From positions 865,819 to 929,818 of the forward strand of contig JAYKKR010000014.1 of assembly GCA_036971615.1 (NCBI GenBank): 64,000 nt of DNA. The letters are read 5' to 3'. The DNA comes from Amyloporia xantha. Taxonomy: Eukaryota > Basidiomycota > Agaricomycetes > Polyporales > Adustoporiaceae. Below, one piece after another: positions 14,546-64,000 of the stretch. The notes beneath the pieces are model-generated. The model had not been told where the DNA came from, made no database searches, and worked only from the letters and a program-made list of their open reading frames with translations. Each line of letters opens with the position of its first letter. The stretch's first letter is position 1. The position numbers were made by a program, and so were the translations under genes.

Positions 14546-14617
14546 GTGCTCACTGCTCAGGCAACTGCGATCATCTTGAGACGTATCGATCAAATGAAAA
14601 CACGGCCTGCAAAAACT

Positions 14618-14688
14618 TCCGACACGGGGAATTGAACCCCGGGCTATCGCGTGAGAGGCGATAATGTTAGCCACTACACCATATCGGA
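14618..14688 (-). tRNA. tRNA-Glu (anticodon CTC), second copy
   Basis: Nearly the same sequence as the gene at 2477-2547; the one change I see is in the T-loop (GGTTCAATTCC). The cloverleaf and the CTC anticodon are preserved and there is no intron. Confidence 0.94.
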
Positions 14689-42110: not shown

Positions 42111-42113
42111 AGG
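42091..42113 (+). repeat. Interstitial telomere-like repeats at element junctions
   Basis: TTAGGTTAGGGGTTAGGGTT joins pseudo-LTR II to III. Similar short TTAGG-like runs occur at about 41576-41609, 42652-42690, 42751-42785 and 46851-46862, always at a unit boundary and always G-rich on the plus strand. Confidence 0.8.
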
Positions 42114-42690
42114 TGGTGGAGCGACGAAGCGACGACGGAGCTATGGGAGCCGAAGGCGACCTTAGCGGAGGATGTTGCTGAGGAGCGGGAGACAGAGCTA
42201 GGCAATGAGGTGCTGGGGATCCAACACCGACCCATTTCGTCTTTTATAGACTCATCAGGCCCTCTATCTTGGTAAGCGAGAAATACCCTGCATCGTACGA
42301 CTTTGAGAATCGTACGACGGCATAATATCTTATTAATAGTTGCCGACGAGACCGAGCCAATAGCATTATCCCGCTATCGGGTGGACTCGGACTATGATGT
42401 CATTGTCTAGACCTGTCTCCTATTATTAGGAGTGACGTCATTCCGACGGAGTTCCGCCGGTCCGAAGAGTCACCGAAGTAGCCGAGCCGGTGCATGTGAT
42501 TCATGCAATCACATGTGCCACCCCTGACGTCATGGCCTAGGTGAGCCTAGAACATGACGTCATCGAGCGCATATATTAGACGCCCCATGTCACGTGACTA
42601 TGTCACGTTACCCCGGCGCTAATTGCATTAAGGACTACGCACCTGGCCCGGACCGTTAGGTCCGTTAGGTTAGGTTCGGTTAGGTTACTA
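42111..42690 (-). repeat. Pseudo-LTR copy III
   Basis: Same start as copy II (AGGTGGTGGAGCG), but extends past CATGTCAC to CCCGGACCGTTAGGTCCGTT and then TTAGG-like repeats (about 42652-42690). Nearly identical to copy II over the shared part. Confidence 0.85.
42191..42268 (-). ncRNA. Hammerhead ribozyme candidate III
   Basis: Same fold as candidate II. The stem I bulge reads UAG instead of UUG; all core nucleotides are kept. Confidence 0.75.
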
Positions 42691-43250: not shown

Positions 43251-46200
43251 CTAATGCGCCCACCCAAATGGGTCCGGCGAGTGACGGTGCAGATAAATAG
43301 TATCGTCGTCAGAAACCCCAGAGACTTCCTCCGGCTGACTAAACGGCAACTGCGAACCGCCTTGAACATTTTGCGCCGCCATTGACGAACTTTCCGCGGA
43401 TTGTTCGTTGACGACGCGCTCGTCCAGCTTTTCGAGAATCATCTTTTTCCAGACACTTGCGATGTCGGCTAGGTTTCGTGTTCTTTTGCGAGACACTAAC
43501 CAGCGACGGTCTAGGATATCAGTCTTACGAATATCAACAAACTGGGTTTCCTCGCCTACATGCCAACTACGGAATTTCAACGCCGAGTCGAACGAGGCTC
43601 TGCCCGATCTGTCATCTTCGTACGGGTATTCTGGTGACCAGTCCCCTGTGGCGGCGCGTGTGCACCACTCACGCCAATATCCAGTGATGACGTCTCCAAG
43701 CTCTTTCGCTTGAAAGTAGTTCCATGCCTCGTTGAACTCTGACTTTAGTACAAGAACGCCTTGCGACGCCTTAGGCTCACCGCCGTCACGCGGTACACTG
43801 AGCCGTTTTTCCCATCGTTCTGAGATGTTATTCTTCAGCCAATGAGTTACGAGTTGTTCGAGATACCCCCTGCACATGTACAAGGCGACCAAGCCTTGCA
43901 TGGCCTGTAAGTAAGTATGCTTAGTACTACTCAGGGTGGCAAGCCGCGACATCTCCCCTATAAAGGTACCCCTCTTTACGTCGAGTGGGTGATGAGATAT
44001 CCATGGAATCCTTTCTTGGTGGGACGCTGCTTTGCGGTATGGCATGTGCTGCAACCTATCAAATTCGTCTTTGTAGAGCGTCATGTCCAGGAACACCTGA
44101 GACCGATGCGAAACGTTCCACTCAATAACACAGCCATCGAAGTGAATATTGTAAGAAATAATATCTAACGCTTCTTGTTCACTAGAAGCGTAGACAATTG
44201 CTAAACAATCATCGATGTAACGACCATAGAAAGGAACTAGGTCGTTATTCATTATATCACACTTGCGTTCGAACCACCAACCATACAGATTTGCTAGATC
44301 CGGTGAGTCCGCTACGCCCATTGCTAGGCCACGCAATTGCTCATATAAAACACCTTGAAACTGTGTAAGCAGTCTAGTGTTGCCAACTTCGAGACAGCGA
44401 CGAAAGATCTCTCGAACCTTCGCTGCATGATCAGCTCCGCCACGTTCCGGATCCGCACTCCAATAATGTTCGAGGTAGAGCTCGTTAACGATTTCTAGAC
44501 ATTTGTCCAGGGGAATGTTTGGGTAGAACGCGACGACGTCGCCAGTAACAATGTACCAGCGACGATCTCGACGCAACTTCAACTGACTCAATTTTATCGC
44601 CAAGTGTTTGGTACCATGTAGAATGGTTGGCGCCGATTCGACAATCGGTTTGAGTTTTTTAGAAACGAATTTAGCCGCAGGATTTTGAATGGCCGAGTGA
44701 CATGGGATTATAGGCCTAAACTTCACAGGATATTTGTGAATTTTAGGTATACCGTAAAATACAGGTATATGATGGTTACTCGAGCCTGCCGGTGTTATCT
44801 TAGACCGCAAAAAGTCTGACAGGTTAGACGGCTCCTCAAGCGCAAGGTAGACCTCAGTTAAGTCTGCCAGCGCATTCATTTCTGCACATTTTACTCGAAG
44901 GATATCGTTGGCTGTTAATCTGTTAAGGGGTCGATAATCCTTAGCATTTGACAGCACCTCCAAGGTTTGAGAGATGATCCAGGTGCGCTCTGACACCGCA
45001 ATTCCCAGATTCTTGTCTGTAGGCGTCACAATGTAATCGTGAGCCTTCAAGAAATCTCGAACTTGGCGGAGATTCGGACCGAGCGGCTTAAGGTGGTCTT
45101 CCGACTCCAGCGACTCGGGCATATTGGCTAGCGTTTTGTTAACGAACAGCCTGCCTTTGAGAAGGCCTTGTTCGATGTAGTGCGGTAGTGCGGGCATTCT
45201 CTTCGCGCGATGCTCAGATTTTACCTCGTACTCTGGATCAAACCACTGATTTTGATCGGTCAAGTGAAAGAACAGTCGCCAATGAATACGACGATTGAAT
45301 TCACGCCATGCATCGCGTATGAGTTCACGATTGTAAGGCGCATAGAACATGAATTTCATGCCTATACTTAACTGATATTGAATCTCACGGGGGACAGAGA
45401 CACCGGTAGACAGATGAACATAACTTTTGAATTGGGACGCGCGCAGAACATCTACTGGCGTATTCAAAAGTACACAACGTACTGCTACAGGATGAGGGAC
45501 TGAAAGCAACCAGTCCGGGAGAGAAGACGGACGACCATACTGATAAGAAAAAGTCCTCGAGAGAGCCTCACTCTCTGACAATGGCGTAAACGATGTGTTA
45601 TCGTTATAGTACGCGCTTACTTGCCACCCTTCTTTCCTCCCCGCCCCTTCTTTTCCTTCGCCTGCTCCTTCTTTTGATGAGCCTTTACCCCACCCGCCGC
45701 GCGAATTGCCTTGGCCTTTCTGCTTAGGGATGACTGAGTTGCGCTTCTTTGGCGCGAACGAGTCGGAGGAGGGATGTACCTTTTTACCTCCGGGGGACGA
45801 GGAAGTTCCTTCCCTTTGCCCTTGGACTGAGTCGACCCGCCATTCTTCTAGGTACGACATTAGCGTATAGGCTTTGGTGCCAAGTGAGGGACCTGGACTT
45901 ACCTTCTGCTTCTGCGCATACTCTTTCGAGAGCTTGTCCGCAAGCTTATGATACCGCGCGTCGACTGCTTTGTTGATCAAGGCCATCGTGGATGGGCCCG
46001 GACCAGCGGAGGCAGACTCAGAAACGTCGACCATCTCGACGTCGGCGGCAGCAGCGATCTCCTTCTTGGCGTCCTGCTTGAGGCGGGACGCGGCATCACG
46101 ACTCTCCACGAGCCGCTGAATGCGCAAGACGTAGACCGACAAGTCTTCGCGGCAGGCGTGGTAGGCGGCAACTGATGCCGGCGAAACCTCCCAACCGTCG

Positions 46201-46811
46201 ACGACCTGCTCGTTCGGGTCGTTGGGCGAAGCAACGAATTTCGGTACCATGGCCTGTGTCTTTACCACCTGCCACCGATGCTTAACGATGTTATCGAGCT
46301 GTTGGAACAACACATCTCGATCTAACAGACCCTCCTGGTGAGCAACGTCGTCCTTCTTCGCCTTGATCGACTCCTCCAAAGTGCCACTCAAGTACTTATC
46401 CCAATCGTCTGAGACTTTCTTTTTGTGTGCGAGGGCAGTCACCGAGTCGGAGAACTCCTTCGTGAGCTGAAGGTCCGGCTTAGCGACGCGGAGGTGCTGA
46501 GGGTACGTTCCGGCACTCTTGTGGTGCTCCCACTTTGCGAGAGTGGCCCGGGCCGAACAGCACTTGCTGACGGTTTTGGCGATCTCAAGAAGAGGGCCCC
46601 GGAGAACGTCACGGTAGTCAGAAGACACCATGGAAACGACCTCGTCGACCGTGTTGGCCGCGAGAATCGCAGTGTGACGGCCGTATAGCAACGAGGTGTG
46701 ACTCTCGTCGCCTGACTGCGCCGACACGTTGCTGATCCGAATAGAATCTGCGAGAGGGGAGACGGCGCGGAGGAAGGCTGGGGTTCCAACAGAGAAGTTG
46801 AAAGAAGACAT
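43251..46811 (-). CDS. Penelope-like element reverse transcriptase (endonuclease-deficient)
   Basis: 1186 codons with no intron needed. The N-terminal 550 residues have Lys/Glu-rich and low-complexity segments (GKGSSKEGAGEGKEG), probably RNA-binding or linker. The RT domain begins near residue 685 with FYGIPKIHK...FRPIIPCHS, a block typical of Penelope and telomerase-like RTs. Then come GDVVAFYPNIPLDKCLEIV (first catalytic Asp, near 760), GLAMGVADSPDLANLYGWW (near 840) and FYGRYIDDCLAIVY (YIDD catalytic pair, near 865). The C-terminal 250 residues show no GIY-YIG motif (no GIY, no catalytic Arg/Glu pattern), so this belongs to the EN-minus class known from telomeres. The frame is fully open, suggesting recent activity. 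It would use the chromosome's 3' end as primer. Confidence 0.88.
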   Translation of the reverse strand: MSSFNFSVGTPAFLRAVSPLADSIRISNVSAQSGDESHTSLLYGRHTAILAANTVDEVVSMVSSDYRDVLRGPLLEIAKTVSKCCSARATLAKWEHHKSAGTYPQHLRVAKPDLQLTKEFSDSVTALAHKKKVSDDWDKYLSGTLEESIKAKKDDVAHQEGLLDRDVLFQQLDNIVKHRWQVVKTQAMVPKFVASPNDPNEQVVDGWEVSPASVAAYHACREDLSVYVLRIQRLVESRDAASRLKQDAKKEIAAAADVEMVDVSESASAGPGPSTMALINKAVDARYHKLADKLSKEYAQKQKVSPGPSLGTKAYTLMSYLEEWRVDSVQGQREGTSSSPGGKKVHPSSDSFAPKKRNSVIPKQKGQGNSRGGWGKGSSKEGAGEGKEGAGRKEGWQVSAYYNDNTSFTPLSESEALSRTFSYQYGRPSSLPDWLLSVPHPVAVRCVLLNTPVDVLRASQFKSYVHLSTGVSVPREIQYQLSIGMKFMFYAPYNRELIRDAWREFNRRIHWRLFFHLTDQNQWFDPEYEVKSEHRAKRMPALPHYIEQGLLKGRLFVNKTLANMPESLESEDHLKPLGPNLRQVRDFLKAHDYIVTPTDKNLGIAVSERTWIISQTLEVLSNAKDYRPLNRLTANDILRVKCAEMNALADLTEVYLALEEPSNLSDFLRSKITPAGSSNHHIPVFYGIPKIHKYPVKFRPIIPCHSAIQNPAAKFVSKKLKPIVESAPTILHGTKHLAIKLSQLKLRRDRRWYIVTGDVVAFYPNIPLDKCLEIVNELYLEHYWSADPERGGADHAAKVREIFRRCLEVGNTRLLTQFQGVLYEQLRGLAMGVADSPDLANLYGWWFERKCDIMNNDLVPFYGRYIDDCLAIVYASSEQEALDIISYNIHFDGCVIEWNVSHRSQVFLDMTLYKDEFDRLQHMPYRKAASHQERIPWISHHPLDVKRGTFIGEMSRLATLSSTKHTYLQAMQGLVALYMCRGYLEQLVTHWLKNNISERWEKRLSVPRDGGEPKASQGVLVLKSEFNEAWNYFQAKELGDVITGYWREWCTRAATGDWSPEYPYEDDRSGRASFDSALKFRSWHVGEETQFVDIRKTDILDRRWLVSRKRTRNLADIASVWKKMILEKLDERVVNEQSAESSSMAAQNVQGGSQLPFSQPEEVSGVSDDDTIYLHRHSPDPFGWAH

Positions 46812-46860
46812 TGTAAAGAAATGAAAAACTCAATGGGGTTGCGTCGTTTGAGGTAAGGTT

Positions 46861-47385
46861 AGGTGGTGGAGCGACGAAGCGACGACTGAGCAATGGGAGG
46901 CGATAGCCGACCTTTGCGAAGGAAGTTGCTGAGGAGCGGGGGACAGAGCTGGGCAATGAGGTGCTGGGGATCCAACACCGACCCATTTCGTCTTTTATAG
47001 ACTCATCAGGCCCTTGCTTAGTCAAGCGAGAATTACCTCGCATCGTACGACTTTGAAAAGTGGTACGACGGCATAATAACTTATTAATAATTGCCGACGA
47101 GACCGAGCCAATAGCATTATCCCGCTATCGGGTGGACTCGGACTATGATGTCATTGTCTAGACCTGTCTCCTATTATTAGGAGTGACGTCATTCCGACGG
47201 AGTTCCGCCGGTCCGAAGAGTCACCGAAGTAGCCGAGCCGGTGCATGTGATTCATGCAATCACATGTGCCACCCCTGACGTCATGGCCTAGGCGGGCCTA
47301 GAACATGACATCATCGAGCGCGTATATTAGACGCCCCATGTCACGTGACTGTGTCACGTAACCCCGGCGCTAATTATATAGTATT
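46861..47385 (-). repeat. Pseudo-LTR copy IV (5' side of the ORF)
   Basis: Starts AGGTGGTGGAGCGACGAAGC next to AAGGTTAGG, and contains the same ribozyme core as copies II and III but a different outer stem I. Its far end (about 47385) changes into unrelated AT-rich sequence. Confidence 0.83.
46942..47023 (-). ncRNA. Hammerhead ribozyme candidate IV (5' pseudo-LTR)
   Basis: Same core, stem II and stem III as candidate II. Stem I has a different sequence (GAC..AGC..GGGC with GCCC.GCU..GUC) but again pairs. It lies 5' of the RT ORF on the same strand, where self-cleavage would define the 5' end of the element RNA. Confidence 0.72.
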
Positions 47386-47569
47386 TTCTATATAGGTGAG
47401 GGTTGGTATTGGGTTCACCATGCATTACATTGCGAACCAGTATGCGAATACTTCACAATAAATATTCGCAATCTAGAAGATTTGATTGATAGCTTGATGT
47501 AACTGTTTCAATCTTGAAACAGAATTGTCCTCGTTGTTATTATTACTATGTTAATTAGGTTATTATGCC
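47386..47569. other. AT-rich spacer between the Penelope array and the inverted repeat
   Basis: No gene or repeat recognised. Confidence 0.4.
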
Positions 47570-48210
47570 TGCTCGCCGTGCATGTGGTGAGGTATTGCCC
47601 AGGCTGCGAGAATATTATGGTAACGATGCCAATAATATATTGTTGCAGACTGAGTGAGCAGAGGCAAAAACCGTAGGGAGATCTGATGCGGCATCAGGAC
47701 AGATGTGTCAGTGTCGGACATGGTAAATGGATCCAATCTGCACAAAGAGTGAGGAGCGATGATGATGATTGCTCAGGTCCAAGGAGGTAAGATTTGTGTG
47801 CGGCAACGGAACATGTGTGTGGGTGCAGGAGATAGAAATTCTCAGGATCACAGACAAAAGACAGAGCCTGTGAGAGCCTGGCTCCATCCTCTCCTCAGTC
47901 GCTCACAGGCTGCATCTATCTTCTGTCTGTGATCCTGAGAATTTCTATCTCCTGCACCCACACACATGTTCCGTTGCCGCACACAAATCTTACCTCCTTG
48001 GACCTGAGCAATCATCATCATCGCTCCTCACTCTTTGTGCAGATTGGATCCATTTACCATGTCCGACACTGACACATCTGTCCTGATGCCGCATCAGATC
48101 TCCCTACGGTTTTTGCCTCTGCTCACTCAGTCTGCAACAATATATTATTGGCATCGTTACCATAATATTCTCGCAGCCTGGGCAATACCTCACCACATGC
48201 ACGGCGAGCA
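47570..48210. repeat. Perfect 286-bp inverted repeat (fold-back)
   Basis: 47570-47855 and 47925-48210 are exact reverse complements over 286 bp by direct comparison, around a spacer of 69 bp. The spacer itself holds a further AGCCTGTGAG/CTCACAGGCT hairpin. The transcript of either strand would form a long double-stranded RNA. The lack of any mismatch points to a recent origin or to gene conversion. Each arm carries the same short frame (MSDTDTSVLMPHQ...), outward-facing. Confidence 0.9.
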
Positions 48211-48280
48211 ATCACAAGCAGGTAGACCAAAGAATCATTTTATCTGTAACAACTGTAAAACATTATTTAATCTTGAATGA
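48059..48280 (+). CDS. Hypothetical short ORF from the inverted repeat right arm
   Basis: 73 codons from the ATG at 48059 to a stop at 48278-48280, starting MSDTDTSVLMPHQISLRFLP and ending HFICNNCKTLFNLE. The same first 50 codons are present on the minus strand of the left arm (47721 downward). No family is recognised and it may not be translated. Confidence 0.25.
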   Translation: MSDTDTSVLMPHQISLRFLPLLTQSATIYYWHRYHNILAAWAIPHHMHGEQSQAGRPKNHFICNNCKTLFNLE

Positions 48281-48957
48281 TATACATGCAATGCATGATT
48301 TTTGTGTGGTACATTTGAGGCGATTGATAATTGCGTGGAATAGATTGTTTCTGCTAGGATATATATAAGATTGCTGACGACATTATTTTGAACTCCATCT
48401 GATGATGTTTGGCAAGTCGGCTTGACATGATTTTTCAAACCAGACAGGTCATATATTATATTCTATTGCTGCTACTTGACTTGATAATTGACCTCATCAC
48501 CAATCCTCATAGTGAGCTTGAACAGTGCATTATCACGTCCACTACTAAGATACTTAATATTAAGCACAACCGGTACACTACTGCATCTTCAGGTGGCATG
48601 ATGCCAGATCTTCGAATGTCGTTCTCTCAGTTTCCTGATGCTGAAAAATGCTAATATATGTTGCAGCAGAAACGGTCTAATACGACATAAATCTATGAGT
48701 TCTAGGCAAGAAAACGACTATAACTACGTAGCATTCATCACAGGCTATACACAAAAATGATTGTATCTTTATAACACAAATGGATGAGAATGTGAATACC
48801 ATATAATATCGCTTCAACTACAAGCTGAGGTATCTTCATTTTCCATAGAGATAGATGACAACATGTTACATTACTATTATATTGTCTCTCGCTCGGCAGT
48901 GGGACATCCATCCACACATGTGTACCCAAGATGGTTTTATAATCTGATGACATATGG
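48281..48957. other. AT-rich region, no gene seen
   Basis: Short frames only (for example 48409-48654 plus), with no recognisable content. Confidence 0.4.
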
Positions 48958-48989
48958 TGCGGCATTGACTCATGGGTGGAAATGCCGCA
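48958..48989. repeat. 32-bp dyad module 1
   Basis: TGCGGCAT, 16-nt spacer, ATGCCGCA. Both 8-bp arms are perfect. Confidence 0.85.
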
Positions 48990-49502
48990 AATTACTGCGA
49001 GTGTCTTGAGTGTGCTTGTAATTGATCGCTGGGCTTACTGAATGCAGAATATCGAAGTTTAGCATAGATCTGCTGTTGACCGGTCGATTGGAGGACTGCT
49101 GTTACCCACTGTGATATCACGCATCACAAACATTATAAAGTGCTACATCTGCACGAATGTGTCACATGATCATATTTATCTTGTGGGAGGTACAAATGGA
49201 TGATTGCCTTTGTTAGACAAACAATATGACTTGCTCTGTGATCAGGATGTCTTGCAGCAGTGTCGCACAGCGGACAATGGGGGACATATAAGAATGACAT
49301 GACACAATATTTAAAATACAAGCGGCGAGTAGCTTTAGAGTGCTTCTGCTAGGATATATATTAGACTGATGACGATGTTATTTTGAGCTTCACTAGATGC
49401 CATATGCGGCTTGGACACCACCACGGCATGGAGTGATGTGGTGCAAGCCCTGATGTAATTCTCACGATTTCTTGATACTGAAAAACACTAATTACAGTAT
49501 AT

Positions 49503-49763
49503 ATGGCACAGCAGAACGTCAATTATTCATTCCGTCCTCCTTTTGACAGCATTCTCTACACAATCGCCTTTTATGCGAATGAGTGGGAAACATTCATAAT
49601 TGACTTCCACATTACAGAAGATTGTCCAATTGGCCTTGTACGTCTCATCATATTTTTAAACATTGCCTGCTACCCTCTGTGTATATTTACGACCTTAGGT
49701 ATTAGCTATCTACGTCATGGAGAAACTGCCATTCAATACAAGGTGACCACAACGAGATACTGA
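49503..49763 (+). CDS. Hypothetical small protein with a hydrophobic segment
   Basis: 86 codons, MAQQNVNYSFRPPFDS..., with an apolar stretch LIIFLNIACYPLCIFTTLGI that could span a membrane. It lies between dyad modules 1 and 2. The end ISYLRHGETAIQ faintly recalls LEFRRHG of the neighbouring gene family, but I cannot show homology. Unrecognised; it may be a degenerate or unrelated frame. Confidence 0.3.
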   Translation: MAQQNVNYSFRPPFDSILYTIAFYANEWETFIIDFHITEDCPIGLVRLIIFLNIACYPLCIFTTLGISYLRHGETAIQYKVTTTRY

Positions 49764-49857
49764 CGACACTCATTAGTAAGTGCATTGATTGCGTCCCACA
49801 AACAGTTATGATGATTGCAGCTAATAGAATATGTAATCAATACTATTGAATAGAAAG

Positions 49858-49889
49858 TGCGGCATCGGACCATGTGATCATATGCCGCA
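49858..49889. repeat. 32-bp dyad module 2
   Basis: TGCGGCAT-N16-ATGCCGCA, perfect arms. Confidence 0.85.
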
Positions 49890-49897
49890 ACATAGGC

Positions 49898-49929
49898 TGT
49901 GGCATAGAGCCACATACTCCGATGCCGCT
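49898..49929. repeat. 32-bp dyad module 3
   Basis: TGTGGCAT-N16-ATGCCGCT, 8 bp after module 2. The spacer length is kept although both arms have changed bases. Confidence 0.7.
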
Positions 49930-50410
49930 CACAACAACTTGTGGTGCTTGCATGAGCAGTAGAGTAGAACCCAAGCCTATGTTTTCAAACACGTCGTTCA
50001 GATAGAATGATATTGAGTCCAAATGCACAAAAGCCGTTAGAACTCCAGTCCAGAGCTTTAGTCCAGAATTCATGAAGCGCATCCTATTATGTTATATTGA
50101 GAAATACATCTTTGGCAGATAATCCGCAGGGAAGCGGTAACGAAACACAGCATGGCGTGGTCTGCAACGGACCTTGCAATGATGGTCACATTGCCACCAG
50201 CTTCTTTGATCGCCGATAAAGATACTGTGCCAATCAGCAAATCATGAGGCTGGACCCGATGGATTGGACAACAACGCATCACCAGGTGATCAACATGCGG
50301 CATCGGCACTCACAAATGAGTTATACATGGACGTAATTAGGGAGACTGAGAAACGTATATAAGAGGCAGGGTGATGTGAGTTTGAGGGTATCGAAAGTCT
50401 CTCATTCACA
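49930..50410. other. Spacer with unsupported minus-strand frames and a dyad half-site
   Basis: Minus frames at 49843-50082 and 50070-50309 have hydrophobic content but no motif or clear splice pattern. A lone half-site TGCGGCAT lies at 50296-50303 without a partner arm. Confidence 0.4.
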
Positions 50411-50939
50411 ATGAGCCAGTATTCAAGGTCAAGAACAAACCGTGAGAGGGATCAAATTTTTATCCTCCGTCGCACATGTTCTATTTTTACTGCTCTGCAA
50501 GAAGAATTTGAGCAGCGACCAGGAACAACTCCGTTTGTCTACTCTCACAGCTACTGGGATGAATGGGCACTTCGTGTAGTGTATCAAGCGGTTAGTAGAG
50601 AAACTCATTACAAGAATGATGGTAATGTACTAATGGTTTCAGCAGCTCCTGATGGTTGAGCTGCAGCAAGACATGGAGCGGCACGGATATGATATACTGC
50701 AGCTCGAAGATCATTTAGACATGACTGTCGATGTTGCACTGGATCTCCTCAAGGAGAGCGACTTGGCCGAAGAGCCATGGATGGATTTAGTGTTCGGTGG
50801 GTGGCATGCAAGACGTCGATGATGACATATATTGATAAATCATTACCTATGGATTGTCCATTTAGAATGGCTAGGTGGTGGCACGCAAGATGACGATGAG
50901 GACATGGACATGCAAGACGTCGATGATGACATGTATTGA
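50411..50939 (+). CDS. Small unknown gene family, member A
   Basis: Exon 1 (from 50411) reads MSQYSRSRTNRERDQ... to FEQRPGTTPFVYSHSYWDEWALRVVYQA, and a GT-AG intron follows (donor GTTAGT near 50590, acceptor TTTCAG near 50642). Exon 2 reads QLLMVELQQDMERHGYD...ALDLLKE. Either the frame stops at 50820-50822, or a second intron (50797-50874) joins an acidic tail rich in Asp ending at 50939. It is the most diverged of five relatives (members B-E) that share RP(x)2MPMVYS, WxxWAxRV and FRRxG, with the same intron position. Function unknown. There is no signal peptide or membrane helix, so it is probably cytosolic or nuclear. Confidence 0.6.
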
Positions 50940-50977
50940 TGAACCGTTACCTATGCATTCACCATTTAGAATGGCTA
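50805..50977 (+). repeat. 69-bp direct duplication at the 3' end of member A
   Basis: 50805-50873 and 50909-50977 are near-identical copies beginning CATGCAAGACGTCGATGATG, offset by 104 bp. In the spliced reading the first copy lies in an intron and the second supplies the last exon. Confidence 0.8.
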
Positions 50978-51041
50978 TAGACAGGCTCGCATACATCTAT
51001 TGTACTTATATACACGGCGAAACGCGAGTTTGAACGTATCT

Positions 51042-51073
51042 ACCGGCATCAGCGCAAGTGTGTCAATGCCGCA
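51042..51073. repeat. 32-bp dyad module 4
   Basis: ACCGGCAT-N16-ATGCCGCA. The left arm is degenerate; the spacer length is kept. Confidence 0.65.
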
Positions 51074-51094
51074 TCACAAACACACCTTGAGAGT

Positions 51095-51126
51095 TGCGGC
51101 ATATAGACCCATGCTCGGATGCCGCG
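51095..51126. repeat. 32-bp dyad module 5
   Basis: TGCGGCAT-N16-ATGCCGCG; only the outermost base differs. It lies 21 bp after module 4. Confidence 0.8.
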
Positions 51127-51421
51127 CAAGTACAATTATAGCATGAAACTCTATTACTACTACTACTACGAGAGAAGGCTGTTAATAGCATCAGCTCAGT
51201 ATCAGACTGAAAGCCGTACATCGTGCTCGAGACTCTTGTTATCTGTCCAAAGTCCTGATTGCCATGCATATTCGTCACCTCCATACGGCGCAATCAGAGC
51301 TAATACATGTGTTTACAAACACAGAAATTATGACTGTGACACATCTATCTCAGTTAGTTAATACATGTATATTACGAAAACATTCTCACTTACAATGTGA
51401 CTGACCACAAGGATGACTTCC

Positions 51422-51779
51422 TCAGGAACTGGACAATGCCTCCTCCTCCTCTGCGGCAAGAAAAAGATCGCTCGCATATTTGATCATCCACCGATATGAT
51501 CGAATGCCAGGGTCATTCAGCACCCCAATGCGGCGGAACACCCTTGAAGTAATAACCACCATGGCCTGTAAATTATGGCATCACATCTCGGCAACATACA
51601 TCCAATGGAGTTGAATCACTTACTGCATACCAGAGCACTCGAGTTGCCCATTGCTTCCAGTGTGCCAATGAATATACCATTGGCATCTCCGCCGGTCCCC
51701 TTTCAGATTCCACCCTAAGTCCCACATAGCCGTCTGTAGCTATTTGGCACAGTTCAGTGATAGATTGAGAGCTGGTCAT
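51422..51779 (-). CDS. Small unknown gene family, member B
   Basis: Exon 1: MTSSQSITELCQIATDGYVGLRVES, then RGPAEMPMVYSLAHWKQWATRVLWYA, ending at a GTAAGT donor (intron of about 60 nt, acceptor TTACAG). Exon 2: AMVVITSRVFRRIGVLNDPGIRSYRWMIKYASDLFLAAEEEE and SSS, with the stop at 51422-51424. About 100 residues, no gaps or frameshifts. Members B, C, D and E all end exon 1 with W(A)xRVxxYA and begin exon 2 in phase 0 with a hydrophobic helix followed by F/L-R-R/K-x-G and a Y-x-x-M block. Transcribed toward member A. Function not recognised. Confidence 0.72.
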
Positions 51780-52103
51780 CGGTGTTAGTTTTGAGTGGAG
51801 GTGTTGCCTGTCGCTGCCACTTATAAGTATTTTCAGCTACGCGACCCTACATCACCTTACGTCCCGGATTCATTCACGTAGCAGGCTAGAATCACGTGGC
51901 GAACTATCTGATGACAGGTCGTGGGAATGAGATTTCTACGAGACAGCTCAGAATTCTGGTGATATTGATGTTCACTTCCTTCCAAGCTATTTGCTATCAC
52001 TGTCTGCAATGACGGTAAAGTTCAAATCCATTTGAAATGATAACGTAAATAATTGATATCGCGTCAAGGCATCCATTATAACTGAAGGAAATCCATATTT
52101 TCA

Positions 52104-52135
52104 TGCGGCATTAGAGTCTTTGTCCGTATGCCGCA
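52104..52135. repeat. 32-bp dyad module 6
   Basis: TGCGGCAT-N16-ATGCCGCA, perfect arms. It lies between members B and C. Confidence 0.85.
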
Positions 52136-52328
52136 AACATGTACATACGTATATAGCACAACTCCCAACGGGTAGTCCCAAATACAAAATACCACGTCAC
52201 AGCCATAGGGGTTGCTTTGTGGACTTCCTCAATATTGAGACCCTATCCTCAGATCGAGTTAGTTGCGATCAAAATTGTTGGACGCCTGTCGCGATCGTAG
52301 GGACTACAGAAGCAGTTCGTAGTGAACA

Positions 52329-52735
52329 TTAGCACGTGTGGAAGCGCACACCTGTGATACCACTACTCACCATACTGCGGATTGCAGCACGAGACAACGG
52401 AGTCCCCTTATTTTCGGCTAAGAATATTTGCATTGCATGATCGACCATTGGTTGGTAGTCGCCTATGTCTTCTTTCGTGGACAAGCCACGGCGGCGGAAT
52501 TCCAGTGTAGCCATGATGACCAGGTCCTGGATAGATAAGTGTTCCCACCCAACATCACTTGGTTTGGCTTACTTACTGCATAGTAAATCACACGAGCAGC
52601 CCATTTCATCCAATACTCAGGCGAAAAGACGATGGGCATAGCCTCTGGTCTCTCTTGATATTCGAGCAGCAGACCTGAATAGCCTTGTGCGATGGTCACA
52701 CAAAGTGTGCCCAGATTGGCGAACGCGACCGACAT
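52329..52735 (-). CDS. Small unknown gene family, member C
   Basis: Exon 1 from the ATG at 52735: MSVAFANLGTLCVTIAQGYS, then LLLEYQERPEAMPIVFSPEYW and MKWAARVIYYA, ending at GTAAGT (intron of about 52 nt ending TATCCAG). Exon 2: DLVIMATLEFRRRGLSTKED, then GDYQPMVDHAMQIFLAENK; the frame continues to a stop at 52329-52331, or may splice again at a GTGAGT near 52385. An ATG six codons upstream (52753) also exists. I prefer 52735 because member D starts with the same MSV and the sequence before it (ATTTCAC.ATGTCGGTC) is shared. Closest to member D. Confidence 0.75.
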
Positions 52736-53165
52736 AGTGAAATGTGGACTCATGCCATCAACATTACCCTCATCTTTAGTACCTTTCTTGAATCCCGTTA
52801 CTTACGTTACGACACGGTCGCACATCACAATCAATTCAGTTGAACGTGTGAATATCGAAGCAGCACATCGAACATATGCTGATGCGTCTTGCTGCAGACA
52901 CCGACCGCAGCAATCATTCTCTTTATTAGTGCATTAACAGGTGATCTCCGATCAACGCATGAATAGGAATGGCCATACGGAATTGCCGTATGAACCATGT
53001 ATATATGTAACAGTAACGATGGGGTGAAGATCGATCGATCATACGTTGTGACTGCGGCCGAGGAACACACGGACCATGGTCCTTGATGAGATCAACCTTG
53101 TAGACCAATCATCTCTGGCAAACATAAAACTCATATGATCCACGTTCTACAGTAGCCTCAGACTG

Positions 53166-53197
53166 TGCGGCATTGGAGCGTCGGTCTGTATGCCGCA
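53166..53197. repeat. 32-bp dyad module 7
   Basis: TGCGGCAT-N16-ATGCCGCA, perfect arms. It lies between members C and D, on the promoter side of both. Confidence 0.85.
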
Positions 53198-53686
53198 CCG
53201 CCTACGTCATAGCGGTGATCGCAGGTACCTCTCGTTTTCACCAGGAGATATTGTGATAGTTGCAATTAGTGACCCAAGCAATGAGCCCAGGGAAGACCAT
53301 CATCATAGTGATACCTGAATAAACCGCGGAAGATATTTAATTGAATGTACACAGAACATGGTTATTGACGACGTGTATCCTCTTTGGAGTACAAGTACAA
53401 ACTGTTATGACACATATGACACAGACGTAGCAAACAACGACCGTGTTTACTGATCGGTGATCACCAGACAATAATCTGCTAATACGATTGCGGTGATTGG
53501 CACGACTAGCGTCATGAGGCAATGCGCATCAGCTTCTGATCAACATGCTGCATTGGTATTCACACAACCGACTGAATTGATAATTGATGGCGATACGCGA
53601 GCGTGTCGCAGACGTAAGTACAGACAAATATACGAAAAGACGCTAAAAGTCAGACCAGCATAGATGGCATCAGTCTCCATTTCACC

Positions 53687-54049
53687 ATGTCGGTCACCTC
53701 TGCCAATGTGGCAGCCCTTTCCTTCACAATGACACGAGGCTATCGCGGCCTCCAGATTGCCTACGAGGAGAGACCAGAGGTTATGCCTGTGGTCTACTCG
53801 CCCAAACACTGGATACAGTGGGCTCGTCATGTGGTCCACCATGCAGTAAGTAAACTAATGGACATAACTTTTGTCAGACCATGACTCTGATTTACGCAGG
53901 ACCTCATCATTAGTGTCACGCTTGAGTTCCGCCGGCATGGGCTGTTATGGACCGAAGACGAAGACATGGGAGGCTATGAACCAATGATCGATTACGCGGA
54001 AGACCTACTATACTATGTCGAAACCAAGCTGCATGCCCCGGTGGCCTGA
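53687..54049 (+). CDS. Small unknown gene family, member D
   Basis: Exon 1: MSVTSANVAALSFTMTRGYR, then GLQIAYEERPEVMPVVYSPKHW and IQWARHVVHHA, ending at GTAAGT near 53848. The intron is about 55 nt, ending TACGCAG. Exon 2: DLIISVTLEFRRHGLLWTED, then GGYEPMIDYAEDLLYYVETKL, with the stop at 54047-54049. About 103 residues, clean splice sites. It is the best-preserved member and a good query for the family. Divergent to member C, about 950 bp away, with dyad module 7 between them. No catalytic motif, signal peptide or membrane helix is seen. Confidence 0.78.
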
Positions 54050-54272
54050 ATGGTTCACCCATATATGGTGGCTGGTCGGAAGGTGCAGATAGATACTGCG
54101 AAATGATGATTTGTATATATGTTAGTCGCATTCTGTAACGATTGAGCCTTCAATGACATGGTGCCGGGACGAGGAGACATGTCCTGGACCATTGTCATCT
54201 GAGCTTTTCAGTAAATTGCTTATTGCAATGCGGCACAATGAGTTTCATGTGGTCCTCCTTCATCTGCCTATG

Positions 54273-54304
54273 TGCGGCATACGGACCAATGTTTCAATGC
54301 CGCA
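54273..54304. repeat. 32-bp dyad module 8
   Basis: TGCGGCAT-N16-ATGCCGCA, perfect arms. It lies between members D and E. A degenerate half-site (TGCGGCAC) precedes it near 54229. Confidence 0.85.
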
Positions 54305-54528
54305 AGAAGAACTCAGTCATCGATGGTTTGTGTTCCTCTGATCGGCAATGTCCACTATGGATCCACTCCTGGAGACTACATCTGTACTTTGTTATTACCT
54401 TTCCATACCTAGGATGTGCCGATCAATAAATATAAGTCGACTGGCTTGGCCAGTTTGCTGTGCCAGGCAACTCTGCGAGCTTACGAGCATTCCTGTATAA
54501 TGCATGTGCACTGATTAGCTGCTATTAA

Positions 54529-54637
54529 TAGAGTGTATTTGCAGTGACCTAGGTCACGGCCAAAAAGGAAATTTTCTTACGTTTTCGTGATCTGATTGAC
54601 TGATAAGCGAGACCTAGGTCTCTGCAAATACACCCTA
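54529..54637. mobile_element. 105-bp MITE-like element with TA flanks
   Basis: Arms of about 27 bp starting GRGTGTATTTGCAG and containing GACCTAGGTC (54531-54557 and the reverse complement of 54609-54635), with a few mismatches. TA stands on each side (54529-54530 and 54636-54637), as in Tc1/mariner-derived MITEs. No coding capacity. Confidence 0.6.
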
Positions 54638-54989
54638 ATGTGTGTACACAGATATGCTCATGGAAGAAGCAAGACCTATATGGATAATCGATGATAAAGA
54701 TGTCAATGGACTTGGCCAAACTTCAAAGAAGGATGTGTGTGGATGTGGAGCACACCCTGAGAAACGAGGCTCGTGCTTCTTTGACCGGGGATCTGAGTTG
54801 ACCTACTAATATAGACCAATGAGATGGTAAGGATCGCAGAGCCAGCGTTTGAGTGCGATCATCTGATGGGAATGATCCATCGCCCGTTGAGTCTATTCAC
54901 ACGCGTTCAATTGAACGTGATACGCGAGCTCATGCCAAACGTAAACATGAGGAGCTGAAAGTATACTTAAGACTGACGGTGGGCCCCGG
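54638..54989. other. Spacer, no gene seen
   Basis: Between the small MITE and member E. Nothing recognisable. Confidence 0.4.
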
Positions 54990-55465
54990 ATGATGACAAG
55001 TGATAACAGTATTTGCTCCATGATGCTTTCAGCAGCCCGGGCGGATACGCTGCATAGAAAGATCCATTCGAGATTCAATGCTCTTCAGATTGAATATCAG
55101 CGAAGGCCGGCCGTGATGCCCATGGTATATCCATTTTCTTTCTGGCTAGAGTGGGCGGACCGGGTCATTGTCTACGCGGTAAGCAACCTCGATGTCCGAA
55201 CGGAGTAATTACATCTTCTGAATGATGCTCGTTTCCGCAGGACACAATCCTTTTGGCGTTAGGGGAGTTGCGCAAGAACGGAATAAGACTGGTTGATGGT
55301 TTAGGACCATACACCTCTATGGTTACCTATGCCTGTGACCTGCTCTACGGCCAAGTTCTCGAGATGACCGTTGTCAGCAGACAGAATAAAATGGTGAGTG
55401 GGCCACTATCAGTGACTATGCTTTTGAAACTGTTGCTGACGGGCGATGAAGGAATGAATAAATAA
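54990..55465 (+). CDS. Small unknown gene family, member E
   Basis: Exon 1: MMTSDNSICSMMLSAARADT, then RFNALQIEYQRRPAVMPMVYPFSFW and LEWADRVIVYA, ending at GTAAGC. The intron is about 62 nt, ending TTCCGCAG at about 55240. Exon 2: DTILLALGELRKNGIRLVDG, then GPYTSMVTYACDLLYGQVLE. The frame runs on through a possible further donor (GTGAGT near 55393) to a stop at 55463-55465. The core matches members B-D in spacing, with Lys-Asn in place of Arg-Arg in the FRRxG block. The start is uncertain because several ATGs are in frame. Confidence 0.7.
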
Positions 55466-55694
55466 TGTTGAAAAGCCATTTCGCATTAGATGCTACCGCG
55501 ATCATGTGGTTGATATATGACACATGCACAAATTCATTGCTGCCGACATGTAGAGCTGCATGTCACAATGGTACACTGTGACTTGCGCCATGATTGTCGA
55601 TACGTTGATCAATCAGGCGAATGCAAGAATCACAAGATTTGGGCGCATCCTTGAGTACGGTAAGATAAATCTACGCAAACCATGCACAGAGATG

Positions 55695-55726
55695 TGCGGC
55701 ATTGACACAGAGGCACTGTTGCCGCA
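55695..55726. repeat. 32-bp dyad module 9
   Basis: TGCGGCAT-N16-TTGCCGCA; one arm base changed. Confidence 0.8.
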
Positions 55727-55767
55727 CCGTCATGAACGAAACAAGACCGCATGTATGGTGGGCGTCG

Positions 55768-55799
55768 TGCGGCATTGGCACTCTCGCAGCAGTGCCGGG
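55768..55799. repeat. 32-bp dyad module 10
   Basis: TGCGGCAT-N16-GTGCCGGG; the right arm is degenerate. It lies 41 bp after module 9. Confidence 0.6.
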
Positions 55800-56011
55800 A
55801 GCTGGTATTAGCACATAAATGACTGTGATCGGCGGAATGGAAACAATTCACCCAAGTGATGAATATCGTCCTTACCTCACATACCGTGACTATCAGATGA
55901 TCATCCAATTGAAGGCATGATGATCTGCGAACATGATGACAGCACAATTGGCTAGTGAGATATATGCTCCTCCCATCCTGCCACCATCACCATAACATAT
56001 CGTCCTGACGC

Positions 56012-57408
56012 ATGAAGGTCGCCAGCACCAGTAAAGCAGCGAAGGTACGGCAACGGCGTGATGCTGAGGACGAGAATGAAGACGAGGGGCCTGGCAGCGA
56101 GACTGGCGGTGATATGGGGAAGGATGGGATTGTGAGCGATATAGCGGTGTTGAAGTACGGGCTAACCGTCATCTGTTCAATAGATCAATGTGAAGGTGAA
56201 CGAGACGGCGGCCAGAGACCTGGCCATGATGAAGCAAGCGCGTGAGGCGCTCATCGGATATGGCCAGCTTGACATTTTGGAAGACTCCAAGTACGTGCTC
56301 AAGTTTGGGAAGTACAACAAGCGTGCTCGCGACCAAGCACAGACAAAACACCTCATAAAATCTCTGCGAGCAAATTATAATCAGTACGATCCGACGACGT
56401 TCCTCGACATCCTCGTCAATGTCGAGGATGTAGAGACGACGCTAGAGAATAATGACGGGTTAGGGGTCCGTCTGCCGGTCCTACGCTTCAAGCAGACAGT
56501 CAAAACGCCGGTCGAGGTCACGGCGTTGGGCGGTCAGCATCGTCAAGCAGCTGCGAGGAGTCTGTGGGAGGCCGACCACAAGCCCGTGCTTGCACTCGAG
56601 AAGAAGAAGAACACGGCGAAGAAAGAAGCGCAGGTGAAAGAGGCAGAAGCCGCAGCACGGAGATGGAGGATGTGGGGCTGTCGAGTATACGACCAGAGTA
56701 AGTGGCATGCGAGAGGGCGTTTGTGTGCGGCATTGACGCAGTGGAGCGAATGCCGCGTTGAAGCCACTGCATCCAGATAAGCTGATTGATTACCCTCTCA
56801 CAGGTAAGGTGAAGGACGATGTGGCGGCCTATCTGTCAACCAACGACTCGAAGTACGTCTTCAAGGCGAATGCGACAGACAGATTGTATTCGCGCATCGA
56901 GCAACTCTTACAGGCAGATGAGAGCGGGGACTTCGACACGACACTCATGACCATTCTAACCGCGCCAAAGGGGTCGGGCAATCTTCGACCTCAAGAATCC
57001 AGGTTCCTGCAATGCCGTCCTATGGTGCAGATGTTGGTAGAACTCAGCATCTACGATCGTCACTACCGTGGCAGTCCTCATATGGGTGCGGAGTTCTTCT
57101 GCAACACGTCGCCGGGGAGCGTGATTGGGGATCATGGCGGGGTAGGTCATTTGCAGCAAGCGCAATTGGATGTGTGTGGTCTGCGATCTAATGGAAGCTT
57201 CTATCTACTACAGTTACTTGCGATGCACCTCTTAATGGAGCTGCACGTACCGCGCAGAATAGCGGCACCGGAAAACAAATTCGCATCCCTGGCGGATACG
57301 AGCAAGATCCTAGATGCCTTGGCCCTTCTCGCAGAAGAAACCGAGGAATTGGAAGGCGAAGATAAGAAGACCGCGCATGCGAAGGAAATCAAGCGGCAGG
57401 AGGTGTGA
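56012..57408 (+). CDS. Unknown protein with a ParB-like GGQHR motif
   Basis: Exons 56012-56131, 56184-56697 and 56777-57408 join in frame to about 420 residues. The N-terminus is a basic then acidic tail (KVRQRRDAEDENEDEG), likely nuclear. The middle holds TPVEVTALGGQHRQAAARSLWE, which resembles the G-x-H-R-xx-A core of ParB-type nuclease/CTPase domains; a Lys-rich coil (EKKKNTAKKEAQVKEAEAAAR) follows. The C-terminal part (DDVAAYLSTNDSKYVF...) has no recognised domain. The coding region stops where transposon-like sequence begins, so it may be cut at the 3' end. Intron 2 contains dyad module 11, tying the gene to the preceding island. No function is assigned; the ParB link rests on one motif. 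Confidence 0.7.
56726..56757. repeat. 32-bp dyad module 11 (inside an intron)
   Basis: TGCGGCAT-N16-ATGCCGCG. It lies within intron 2 (56698-56776) of the GGQHR gene, the only module inside a gene. Confidence 0.8.
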
Positions 57409-61008: not shown

Positions 61009-63886
61009 CTAACGGAGCTTTTGATTCGCGCGATATTCACGAAGAATCTCGTGCGCATTCCTTAAGTCTCGCGCCGTTTGCCAGGTGTCTTCGGTAGGAC
61101 CGTAACCCTTCCAGCGCACCAGATATTCGATGGCGTTGCGCTTGGCCCGGTTCTTTCTCCAAGCAACAATTTTTCGACTTCGTATTCCTCCGATGCACGC
61201 CATTCAGAACCTCGGGGATCTGGGAGGATCGGCCTCTCGATCTCTCCCTGCTTTCCCGAGTCGGCTTCGTGATATCGTCGTAAGTGTTGGATGTTGACCA
61301 CTGGGTGCATCGGGTACGTGTCTGGAATTGAAAGGCGGTAGGCAACAGGGCTGATCTTCTCCTGTACCGTGAAGGGTCCCAACATACGTTGGACCAACTT
61401 CTTGCCTACTCCTTTCACATCAACGAGCTCTAGGCTATGGGGGTTTAGTAGCACCTTGCATCCGATAGGGAAAACCTCATCTCGTCGTTTTTTGTTGTAT
61501 TGTATCGCGGCTTGTTGCTGGGCTACGGTTATTGAATCTCTGGCCTTCCGACGGTGTAACTCCATGCTCATGACAAACTCGTTGGCGAGTTCCGCCGGAT
61601 GAGACGGTCGAACCTCGTAATGGTCTTCAGCCGAGAGGAAATCTGATTCCCCCTTTGGATTAAATCCGTACAGCAGGAAATACGGGGAATACCCCGTGGT
61701 AGAGTGAACCGAGGAGTTGTAAGCATGCACAAGCGTAGGGAGCCACTTTGACCAACCCCGCCTATCACCTTGGGTATAAGCGCGGAGCATGGTTTCGAGA
61801 TGCTGGTTCACGATCTCGGTCTGGCCGTCGTGTTGCGGGTGATGTGACGAGGATAAACTCATGTGAATACCCAATTCGGCGGAGACTGACCTCCAGAAAT
61901 CCGAAGTCCATCGGGCGTCCCGATCGGCGATAATGTGGTCTGGGATTCCGAATCGGTATATCACTTGGTCCACAAATAACTTGGCAAACCCCTCCTTGGT
62001 GAGAGTCCCGCGACACGGGAGGAACTGGGCGTGCTTAGTGCACCGATCGACGGTAACGAAAACCGCATCATATCCCTCAGACTCCGGCAGCCCCGTGATA
62101 AGGTCGAAGGACACCCATTCATAGGGTCTGTTTGGGACTGGGTTAGGCCTTAAAAGCCCAGCTTTCATACGATGGTCGACTTTGGTCTTCTGACAGACAT
62201 CGCAGGTTTGCGCATAGTACAAGACGTCCTGACGAAGCGTCGGCCAGTAGAAGCGGCCACTAATTCGGAGTGCGAGTTTACGTGATCCCTCGTGGGCGGA
62301 TTCGAAAGGGGAATCGTGGACTCGCGAGAGGAGAGGGAAGACTTCCGAACGCGGTACGCAAAGGCGAGCCGGTTCTGCCCCGGATCGGAAGTACAGAAGG
62401 CCATCATCTCCCTTGAAAAAGCATTGCCCGACGAAAAGGGGAATGTTCGGATCCCCAGCGACTGACCATTTCGTTTTGAAGAAGGGGTCCTTCGCATACC
62501 CCTCGATGAAGCGAGAGTGTAGCTCTTCGCTTAATTGGATAAGGATTCGGGACGTTCCCAGCTGTTCGTCTCCCAACGAAGCAGCAGCTGGAGTCGCGGA
62601 AGAGTTTATATCAGGAGTCTGGCGATCAGACATCCCGGCTTCTATCGCTTCAAGGTTCGACGTAGTCCCACTTTTGGTACTGCTGGAGGAGCGGCGTTCG
62701 CTCATCCTTCCCGAGATGTGGCTAGAGACGGTGATCCCATCGCAGAAGGTAGGTGTCTCGTGGTCCAGGGATGCAGCCTCAGCCTCAAGCGGAGTCGGGG
62801 TACTCACCAACACGTCCTCCCAGCAGGCTACTCTGTGAACGGCTTGTGCGAGCTTGCGCGCGGGAGCTTTCGCGGCCGTCTCCTCCAAGGTTGCCGAACG
62901 GATTTGATCCGTAACTATGGGAGCGGATGAGTCTTTGAGGGGTGAGTCGTGCGATGGAGGAAGTCGGGGAATCCTGGAAAGAGGGTCCACGTTAGAGTGT
63001 ACTCTACCAGCGCGATGCACGATGTCCAAGTTCGGGAGATAAGCCGCGAACACGGCCCCCCAGGCGGCGAGTCGTCGGTTTGCATTCTCATAAGTCCGAG
63101 CCCATTGAAGGGCGGCGTGATCCGTAATGAGAATGATCTGTTCTCCTTCGATGAATGGTTGAAAGTGGACCAGACCTTCCTTGGCGGCTAGTGCTTCCCG
63201 TTCCGTAGCGGAGTAATTTCTTTCGGCTGGTTTGCAAGACCGGCTCCAGTAAGCTATAACTCTTTCTACAGAAACTCTAGTGTCGTCGAATTCGGGGGCC
63301 CATTCTCCTGGGTTCCCAGTGTCGTCAAATTTCGCGGATACGAGAGAAACCAGCTTGGGAATCGGGAGTCCTGCGTCATACGCTTTGCGTAGTCTGTCGT
63401 AAACTCGCGTTCCAGCTAAGTCTCGTATTTCGATGGCTTGAACTTGCTGCAAGCAGCATCCCAGTGCTATGTCTGAAGCGTCCGAGTAAAGTCGGTAGGT
63501 CTGGCCTGCCATGGCGTGGGCTAAAACGGGAGCAGATTGGAGGGTGATCTTCGCTTGCGTCCAAGCTACTTCGCATTCGGCGGTCCATTCCCACTTCCGG
63601 TCTTTACGAAGGAGTTCAAACAGAGGCGAAGCGATAAATGAGAAGTACGGGATATAGGCCGAGAAGTACACGACCATGCCGAGGAAAGTTTGCAATTCCG
63701 ATACCTTAGTGGGTCGGGCCAGTTCCATAATGGCCTTGACCTTTTCTTCGTGCGTGGAGAACCCGAGCCGCGACACCTTCTGTCCCAGGAGCAGGATCGA
63801 AGTATATCCAAAATGGCACTTAGTCGGGGAAAGGGTAATCCCCGCAGCTTCTACTGCCGCAAGCACCTGATCTAGATGGTCGACGT
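61009..63886 (-). pseudogene. Ty3/gypsy chromovirus pol, truncated in the RT domain
   Basis: On the minus strand the frame 63866-61062 begins in the RT thumb (SPTKCHFGYTSILLLGQKVS) and runs through the RNase H region (TYRLYSDASDIALGCCLQQ, with a mushroom-typical insertion, then ITDHAALQWA). Next come the integrase HHCC zinc finger (about 62190-62320, ending CDVCQKTK), the integrase core with FDLITGLPE, the second Asp in IIADRDARWTSDFW and the Glu in HDGQTEIVNQHLE, and a GPFTV-type C-terminal domain. A one-base frame change near 61170 separates it from a chromodomain (IEYLVRWKGYGPTEDTWQ) ending at 61009-61011. The protease and the RT palm with its catalytic aspartates are absent, because the coding sequence is cut at 63886 by the TTAGG array. 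It is non-functional here. Confidence 0.88.
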
Positions 63887-64000
63887 GTTAGGTTAGGTTA
63901 GGTTAGGTTAGGTTAGGTTAGGTTAGGTTGGGTTAGGTTAGGTTAGGTTAGGTTAGGTTAGGTTAGGTTAGGTTAGGTTAGGTTAGGTTAGGTTAGGTTG
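63887..64000 (+). repeat. TTAGG pentamer array, probable right telomere
   Basis: About 23 tandem GGTTA units to the window edge. Two units read GGTTG (63926-63930 and 63996-64000). The G-rich strand runs 5' to 3' toward the right end, the polarity of a right telomere. The unit is five bases, not the TTAGGG hexamer usual in fungi. Confidence 0.85.

Follow-up and report, generated by a model that had tools for sequence, protein, structure and literature searches.

Locus and gene content

We analysed a 64,000-nucleotide stretch of the genome of the basidiomycete Amyloporia xantha (assembly GCA_036971615.1, contig JAYKKR010000014.1, positions 865,819 to 929,818), hereafter the window, which is the end of contig C6 in an assembly of 46.8 Mb and 60 contigs. 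The window contains a copy of a giant, mobile-looking element with repeated palindromic sites (dyads), each formed by two inverted arms around a 16-nt spacer. An earlier examination of the letters alone (the sequence-only reading) had described eleven such modules with an invariant spacer and overlooked both the element that carries them and the dyads that two sister elements have of their own. All eleven were recovered, with spacers of exactly 16 nt, among 13 matches to TGCGGCAT-N16-ATGCCGCA with up to three mismatches (100 shuffles gave a mean of 0.40 and a maximum of 3). The two extra copies, with three mismatches each, show that the window does hold paired copies beyond those first noticed.

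The element starts at a sharp proximal terminus, its head (47373..47401, plus strand; ATTATATAGTATTTTCTATATAGGTGAGG). Just inside it lies an inverted repeat (47563..48217) with 303-nt arms that are 98% complementary around a 49-nt centre; the two additional dyads occupy its left (47687..47718) and right (48062..48093) arms. Further in are a dyad without mismatches at 48958..48989 and a pair at 49858..49889 (no mismatches) and 49898..49929 (two mismatches). Five members of a small-gene family follow. The first (approximately 50411..50659, plus strand) has one short intron devoid of dyads and was placed from the sequence and a family match on the minus strand of C15 (34926-35207), and the second (approximately 51573..51833, minus strand) was lifted from C15 33745-34005. 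The third is an open reading frame (ORF) on the minus strand (52466..52801), and the last two, both on the plus strand, were placed approximately from the sequence and family comparison (53664..54049, in two exons, and 54990..55400). Each of the four gaps between these genes contains one dyad or dyad pair: 51042..51073 (two mismatches) paired with 51095..51126 (one mismatch) between convergent genes, 53166..53197 between divergent genes, and 52104..52135 and 54273..54304 between tandem genes, the last three without mismatches.

The remaining dyads accompany a gene that we designated A. A pair lies upstream of it at 55695..55726 (one mismatch) and 55768..55799 (three mismatches). Gene A is predicted on the plus strand with exons at 56012..56131 (end approximate), 56184..56697, which contains a GGQHR.AA motif and the sequence WGCRVYD, and 56804..57405, which ends at the element break. 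The predicted intron at 56698..56803 contains a dyad with one mismatch (56726..56757). This copy of the element breaks off distally at 57403, and the copies on C15, C36 and C59 run on.

The dyad as a probable two-part protein site

The spacing of the arms is fixed beyond the window. We scanned the window together with stretches of C15, C57, C36, C59 and C35 (236,361 bases in all) for arms with at most two mismatches and spacers of 0 to 60 nt. The 16-nt spacer gave 121 matches, each near-identical copy of the island being counted, whereas the next-highest counts were 8 and 6 and 37 of the 60 other spacers gave none. This comparison of spacer lengths, proposed in the sequence-only reading, supports the constraint on spacing that it had suspected. 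Genome-wide, a 14-base core with at most one mismatch matched 141 times, versus 4 for the reversed pattern, and at least 121 of the 141 fall within the stretches retrieved. As had been anticipated, the dyads concentrate in this island and in the copies of it found at the ends of other contigs. The 16-base pattern with three mismatches matched 397 times versus 120 for the control, and a sizeable share of the weak matches is therefore due to chance.

The matches with at most three arm mismatches comprised 52 distinct sequences, which merged into 45 independent dyads (90 half-sites) once near-identical ones were combined. Each dyad consists of two inverted half-sites, GCGGCATYGRnnCA, with the consensus xGCGGCATYGRnnCA on each side. 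Every base of GCGGCAT is kept in 80 to 89 of the 90 half-sites, and position 14, an inner C that formed no part of the search pattern, is kept in 76. Thus, the distant likeness first noticed among the spacers is real and corresponds to the inner part of the two half-sites. Scores from a matrix built from these same dyads were all-or-none on C15, with 41 dyads at 21.5-41.1 bits and one at 10.4, compared to a maximum of 5.6 in the 45-kb flank (C6 1-45000). Single half-sites were scarce on C15, with two at about 19 bits and the rest below 15; the flank has one at 15.1.

A hairpin RNA, one of the models raised at first, or a splicing signal would be consistent with the presence of many dyads in predicted introns and with their capacity to fold as inverted repeats. 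RNA pairing predicts that the two arms covary. The agreement between arms at the inner positions was no better than under random pairing of the halves (137 versus 150.5 +/- 7.7), which argues against a hairpin. Furthermore, dyads also occur outside genes, the first intron of gene A, which measures 52 nt on C59, has none, and no Rfam family matched at the dyads; an RNA role is therefore very improbable. Each half keeps the consensus independently, as in a protein site, and changes in one half are not compensated in the other. The half-site analysis also supports protein sites over chance palindromes, which the sequence-only reading had likewise disfavoured, and we consider a protein site of one kind or another highly probable.

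A giant element directed toward contig ends

The dyads of the window belong to the first of three related elements. The longest single stretch tiled by them spans 37.5 kb (C15), and about 4.6 kb more with first-type dyads precedes the head of a second element on C57, so the first element is probably at least 42 kb long. Blocks longer than 2 kb common to C6, C15, C36, C57, C59 and C35 are 98.4-99.9% identical. Four copies share the sharp terminus and differ in their flanks. The genome has six such heads (C6, C15, C17, C35, C36 and C59), and all six point toward the nearer contig end. In the fetched stretch of C35, the element ends at 12138 and telomeric repeats begin at 12139. The genes identified in the first element are the A-B genes (four paralogues on C15), E-D, F and the five small genes.

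A 35.6-kb insert (C15:37545-73129, genome coordinates) that contains 1.1-kb inverted repeats interrupts the palindrome of the C15 copy; the two halves of the element overlap by 12 bases, a possible target duplication. The head in the window abuts one of three copies of a repeat of about 490-520 bp (41603-42624 and 46854-47375), and a relative of this repeat abuts the second-element head on C35. Also beside the head in the window is a 1192-amino-acid open frame on the minus strand (43254-46829) with no Pfam match at E 0.001.

Dyads in predicted introns and intergenic gaps

Introns were predicted from splice signals and conserved reading frames. Dyads lie in the same predicted intron of the four gene A paralogues (A1, A2, A3 and A4), in introns at the A-B junction and in an E-D intron. 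The dyad-bearing introns of A1, A2 and A3 are 106, 174 and 194 nt long. The homologous intron also carries dyads in the second and third elements; in all three elements it is in phase 1 and follows W-G-x-x-x-Y-D, based on A1-A3 of the first element, the C57 copy of the second and C17 of the third. In the C36 copy of the second element, a one-base difference breaks this gene A frame.

Confident exons account for 38% of the element and contain none of the 28 dyad clusters, versus an expectation of 11.1 and a minimum of 1 in 20000 random draws. The exon limits used in this comparison were drawn by hand with the dyad positions known, and an overlap flagged by the script at 5814, where a protein alignment extends into the A2 intron, was set aside. 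The clusters of the first element are also fairly evenly spaced: the gaps between them average 1.34 kb with a coefficient of variation of 0.39, compared to 0.82 for random placement, and none of 20000 draws was as even.

These positions bear on the proposal that the dyads are upstream activating sequences or enhancers through which an element-encoded or host activator turns on the genes of the element as a group. The pair at 55695 and 55768, about 210-320 bp upstream of gene A, would suit such a role, as would a strong single half-site upstream of a small gene (C15 35271, 18.9 bits; about 50295 in the window). A weaker half-site look-alike at 53545 in the window scored under the 11.5-bit cut. 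Plain promoters, however, need no sites in internal introns or between convergent gene ends, and the occurrence of dyads in introns and in convergent, divergent and tandem gaps alike argues against them. We regard coordinated transcription as an unlikely explanation.

Sister elements with dyads of their own

The second element carries dyads of the form GGAATATCGTYC, with 71 matches in the genome and 0 for the control; among the matches listed, they are on C57, C36, C35, C59, C10 and C34. On C57 they form clusters of three to five, mostly 52-54 or 73-76 bp apart, and the same holds broadly for the second and third elements together (mostly 51-54 or 72-76 bp). The linkers between sites are unrelated in one C57 cluster (45141-45352) and alike in another (48722-48934), whose copies therefore probably arose by tandem duplication. 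At the inner positions of the second dyad the two arms agreed 32 times versus 29.0 +/- 2.8 under random pairing, which is not telling.

The third element, read in a 7.5-kb stretch (C17:13000-20500), has 19 dyads of the form GGAATAGCGTYC, 11 of them within 1.2 kb of the head and mostly 72-74 bp, or about double that distance, apart. Its half-sites differ from those of the second element at position 7: of the 38 in the third element, 37 have G and one has A, and of the 34 examined in the second (C57), 30 have T and four have C. Thus, the two elements have no letter in common at this position in the copies compared.

The heads of the second and third elements are close relatives, and ATTATA and TTTTCTA are common to all three heads. 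Five of the six second-element heads point toward the nearer contig end, the exception lying 2.03 Mb along C34, a contig of 2.44 Mb. Eight heads belong to the third class, to which the third dyad was tied by reading onward from one of them (C17). Those on C10, C17, C19 and C55 lie 11-117 kb from the contig start and face it, two on C34 are not directed at the nearer end, and the remaining two are on C22 and C23. Two regions of C34 (2001785-2032981 and 2378957-2409007) have heads and relatives of the element gene D well inside the contig or facing away from its nearer end. A past fusion, insertion at an internal site or an assembly error may explain these odd placements. The relatives of D on C36 and C34 are preceded by a palindrome, which we considered as a third code and rejected because those stretches are 96-99% identical overall.

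The array next to the third head invites comparison with the subterminal repeats of transposons, in which case the dyads would be sites for a transposase or recombinase of the element's own that has gone unrecognised. Recombinase-type sites, at 28-32 bp and inverted, are also similar in size. The dyads of the first element, however, tile its body rather than its ends, and only one of four breakpoints (C15 17649, C15 37544, C6 57403 and C35 12138) lies within 25 bp of a dyad, the other three being at least 400 bp away. A recombinase role is improbable.

The differences between elements also bear on the suggestion, made in the sequence-only reading, that the modules are relics of a tiny mobile unit, and on the related one that they are neutral duplicates spread by gene duplication. 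Their number, and the repetition of the island itself, would fit such an origin. Contrary to it are the 45 independent spacers around seven arm bases, none of which is retained in fewer than 80 of 90 half-sites (in a search that admitted up to three arm mismatches), the near lack of decayed series and the concerted one-position difference in the third element. Diverged paralogues, moreover, hold dyads in the same intron, an observation made without a systematic search for empty sites. This origin has hardly any probability left, in our estimate.

Element proteins and candidates for a dyad reader

The protein database contains a single distant relative of protein D, from Scleroderma citrinum (E 2.1e-18, 25% identity), and E, a middle ORF and D match that one protein in order. 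Diverged relatives of D are encoded on C5, C10, C17, C23, C34, C36 and C55. Searches with D gave a single weak Pfam match (E 0.2), no NCBIfam match and no relatives in phages or viral contigs. Searches of the PDB returned nothing of note, and structure predictions were poor, with a mean predicted local distance difference test score (pLDDT) of 41 for the gene A exon of C36 and 47 for D. We scanned with Pfam the minus strand of C15 (1-30 kb) and the plus strand of C57 (30-50 kb), with stops read as X, together with single ORFs. These frames, which cover one strand of copies seen without their distal end, yielded no recognised transposase, integrase or recombinase.

Gene A encodes GGQHR.AA followed by a conserved WG(C/V)..YD strand. 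We take this motif order to recall ParB, with GGQHR.AA recalling box II, and use it as a lead only, since the match is not significant. No match to PF02195 was found in the genome at E 10. In an hhalign comparison of A with four ParB proteins, box II fell in register at E 0.27, and one of eight shuffles came near the same score (15.8 versus 16.2). PHROGs gave scattered weak matches to A, the best at E 0.0043 in one of five members.

ParB-parS and EBNA1-oriP are systems in which a dimeric protein binds multiple palindromic sites. The dyads resemble them in being palindromic and present in many copies, and the GGQHR.AA motif of A recalls ParB box II below the level of significance. The dyads could accordingly be sites for DNA maintenance or handling, where an EBNA1-, LANA- or ParB-like dimer would tether, segregate, replicate or package the element. 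Such a function would agree with the fairly even tiling of the first element, which extends beyond promoters, with the arrays directly inside the heads of the second and third elements, and with the ParB-like order of motifs in gene A. It is weakened by the statistics of the ParB comparison and by the location of all observed copies in assembled contigs; we know of no plasmid or episome form of the element. Maintenance is, on balance, a rather unlikely explanation.

The sequence-only reading had also compared the ends of the arms to half-sites of Zn2Cys6 regulators. The CGG...CCG triplets of the first dyad do recall such sites, but the 22-nt gap and the extended half-site do not, and the outer C of CGG is kept in only 10 of 24 half-sites of the second dyad. 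Furthermore, the scan of element frames detected no Zn-cluster domain, a test that leaves host regulators aside. We therefore set the comparison aside.

A putative self-recognition system

Tentatively, and at somewhat under an even chance, we favour a reading in which three families of giant chromosome-end elements each carry their own two-armed site, likely bound by a dimeric protein of their own, and would thereby remain accessible and active despite silencing by the host. We infer from sequence patterns that a protein may bind the dyads, that the element itself may encode it, that it would act as a dimer and that its effect would be anti-silencing or activation across the element. A protein made by the element would load onto dyads spread over the non-coding DNA as a form of self-recognition and would then evict or block the silencing chromatin that covers the element near the chromosome end. 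It would act on its own family only, because dyad and protein are proposed to change together. We place anti-silencing ahead of element maintenance and coordinated transcription.

To our knowledge, the layout that may best match these elements is that of the VANC proteins and their motifs in the VANDAL transposons of Arabidopsis, as described in two reports (PMC5735166, PMC10398659). According to the former, VANC21 binds YAGTATTAY in introns, intergenic regions and terminal non-coding regions of VANDAL21, demethylation spreads over the element, and the targets of VANC6 carry different motifs (PMC5735166). The likeness is twofold: a family-specific motif occupies introns (here predicted), intergenic regions and terminal non-coding parts, and related families have other motifs (three codes here) that change together. 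Motif binding has been demonstrated for VANC and is inferred here. The elements described here, unlike VANDAL, are giant, lie mostly near contig ends and have no known domain in the frames scanned. VANDAL elements are MULE-type DNA transposons with a VANA transposase. No Pfam family, and hence no transposase of that type, reached the cut-off in the C15 and C57 frames, a result that is not final because no full-length copy was seen.

A second comparison is with terminons, which PMC6431247 describes as giant telomeric Penelope-like elements of bdelloid rotifers. Like our elements, terminons measure tens of kilobases, lie at the ends of chromosomes, contain many open frames, are truncated distally and occur in arrays (PMC6431247). 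The frames scanned, in copies none of which was full-length, contained no reverse transcriptase. In addition, eight head junctions (four of the first element and four of the second) had no telomeric array and only a single GGTTAG in one flank; unlike terminons, the heads join non-telomeric DNA.

Several observations weigh against the anti-silencing reading. The Pfam scan yielded only sub-threshold matches (one at E 0.09), gene A had no relative in the protein database in length-limited and word-limited searches, and its apparent ParB-like motif is not significant by profile comparison; the binder could also be host-encoded. The conservation of the arms is partly built in because the search admitted at most three arm mismatches, and the third code comes from a single 7.5-kb stretch. 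Distances inside the clusters of the first element lack helical phasing (Rayleigh p 0.18-0.35); phasing is strong only in the second element, where tandem duplication made some copies. The VANC21 motif has nine bases in tandem and in the same orientation (PMC5735166), compared to palindromic dyads of 26-32 bp here. Finally, CpG in the first element is 0.90 overall and 0.86 outside exons versus 1.05 in the flank, and 1.01 in the second element. This mild depletion would fit past methylation weakly, and in the first element only.

Possibly, these elements form a class not described before, giant, directed outward at chromosome ends and composed of orphan genes, with a private palindromic code in introns and gaps and a co-evolving reader encoded by the element. 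In this case, the switch from T/C to G at one position between the second and third families, present in all copies compared but one, would be a record of a change in specificity. Topic searches of the literature and a literal search for the arm sequences, the latter judged by title, listed no report of the dyads or elements, which is not proof of absence. If the reading is correct, it would extend sequence-specific self-recognition beyond plants, to elements of an unassigned kind from which chromosome ends are built. With three codes available, and with dozens of half-sites in two of them differing at a single half-site position, the joint change of regulator and sites in a selfish element would then become testable.

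Other features of the window

The proximal part of the window (1-29176) is occupied by diverged repeats of 2.1-2.6 kb, 74-82% identical and in both orientations, and two tRNA-Glu genes lie at 2476-2547 and 14617-14688. Distal to the element copy and outside it, a Ty3/gypsy-like ORF on the minus strand (61065-63887), with matches to RNase H, integrase and Tf2-1 SH3 domains, adjoins the telomeric repeats. The chromosome end itself (63887-64000) is a 5-base repeat, (GTTAG)n, unlike the TTAGGG reported for Phlebopus (PMC12411881). C7 and C9 likewise contain (GTTAG)n runs, which also occur where C1 and C5 begin and where C35 ends.

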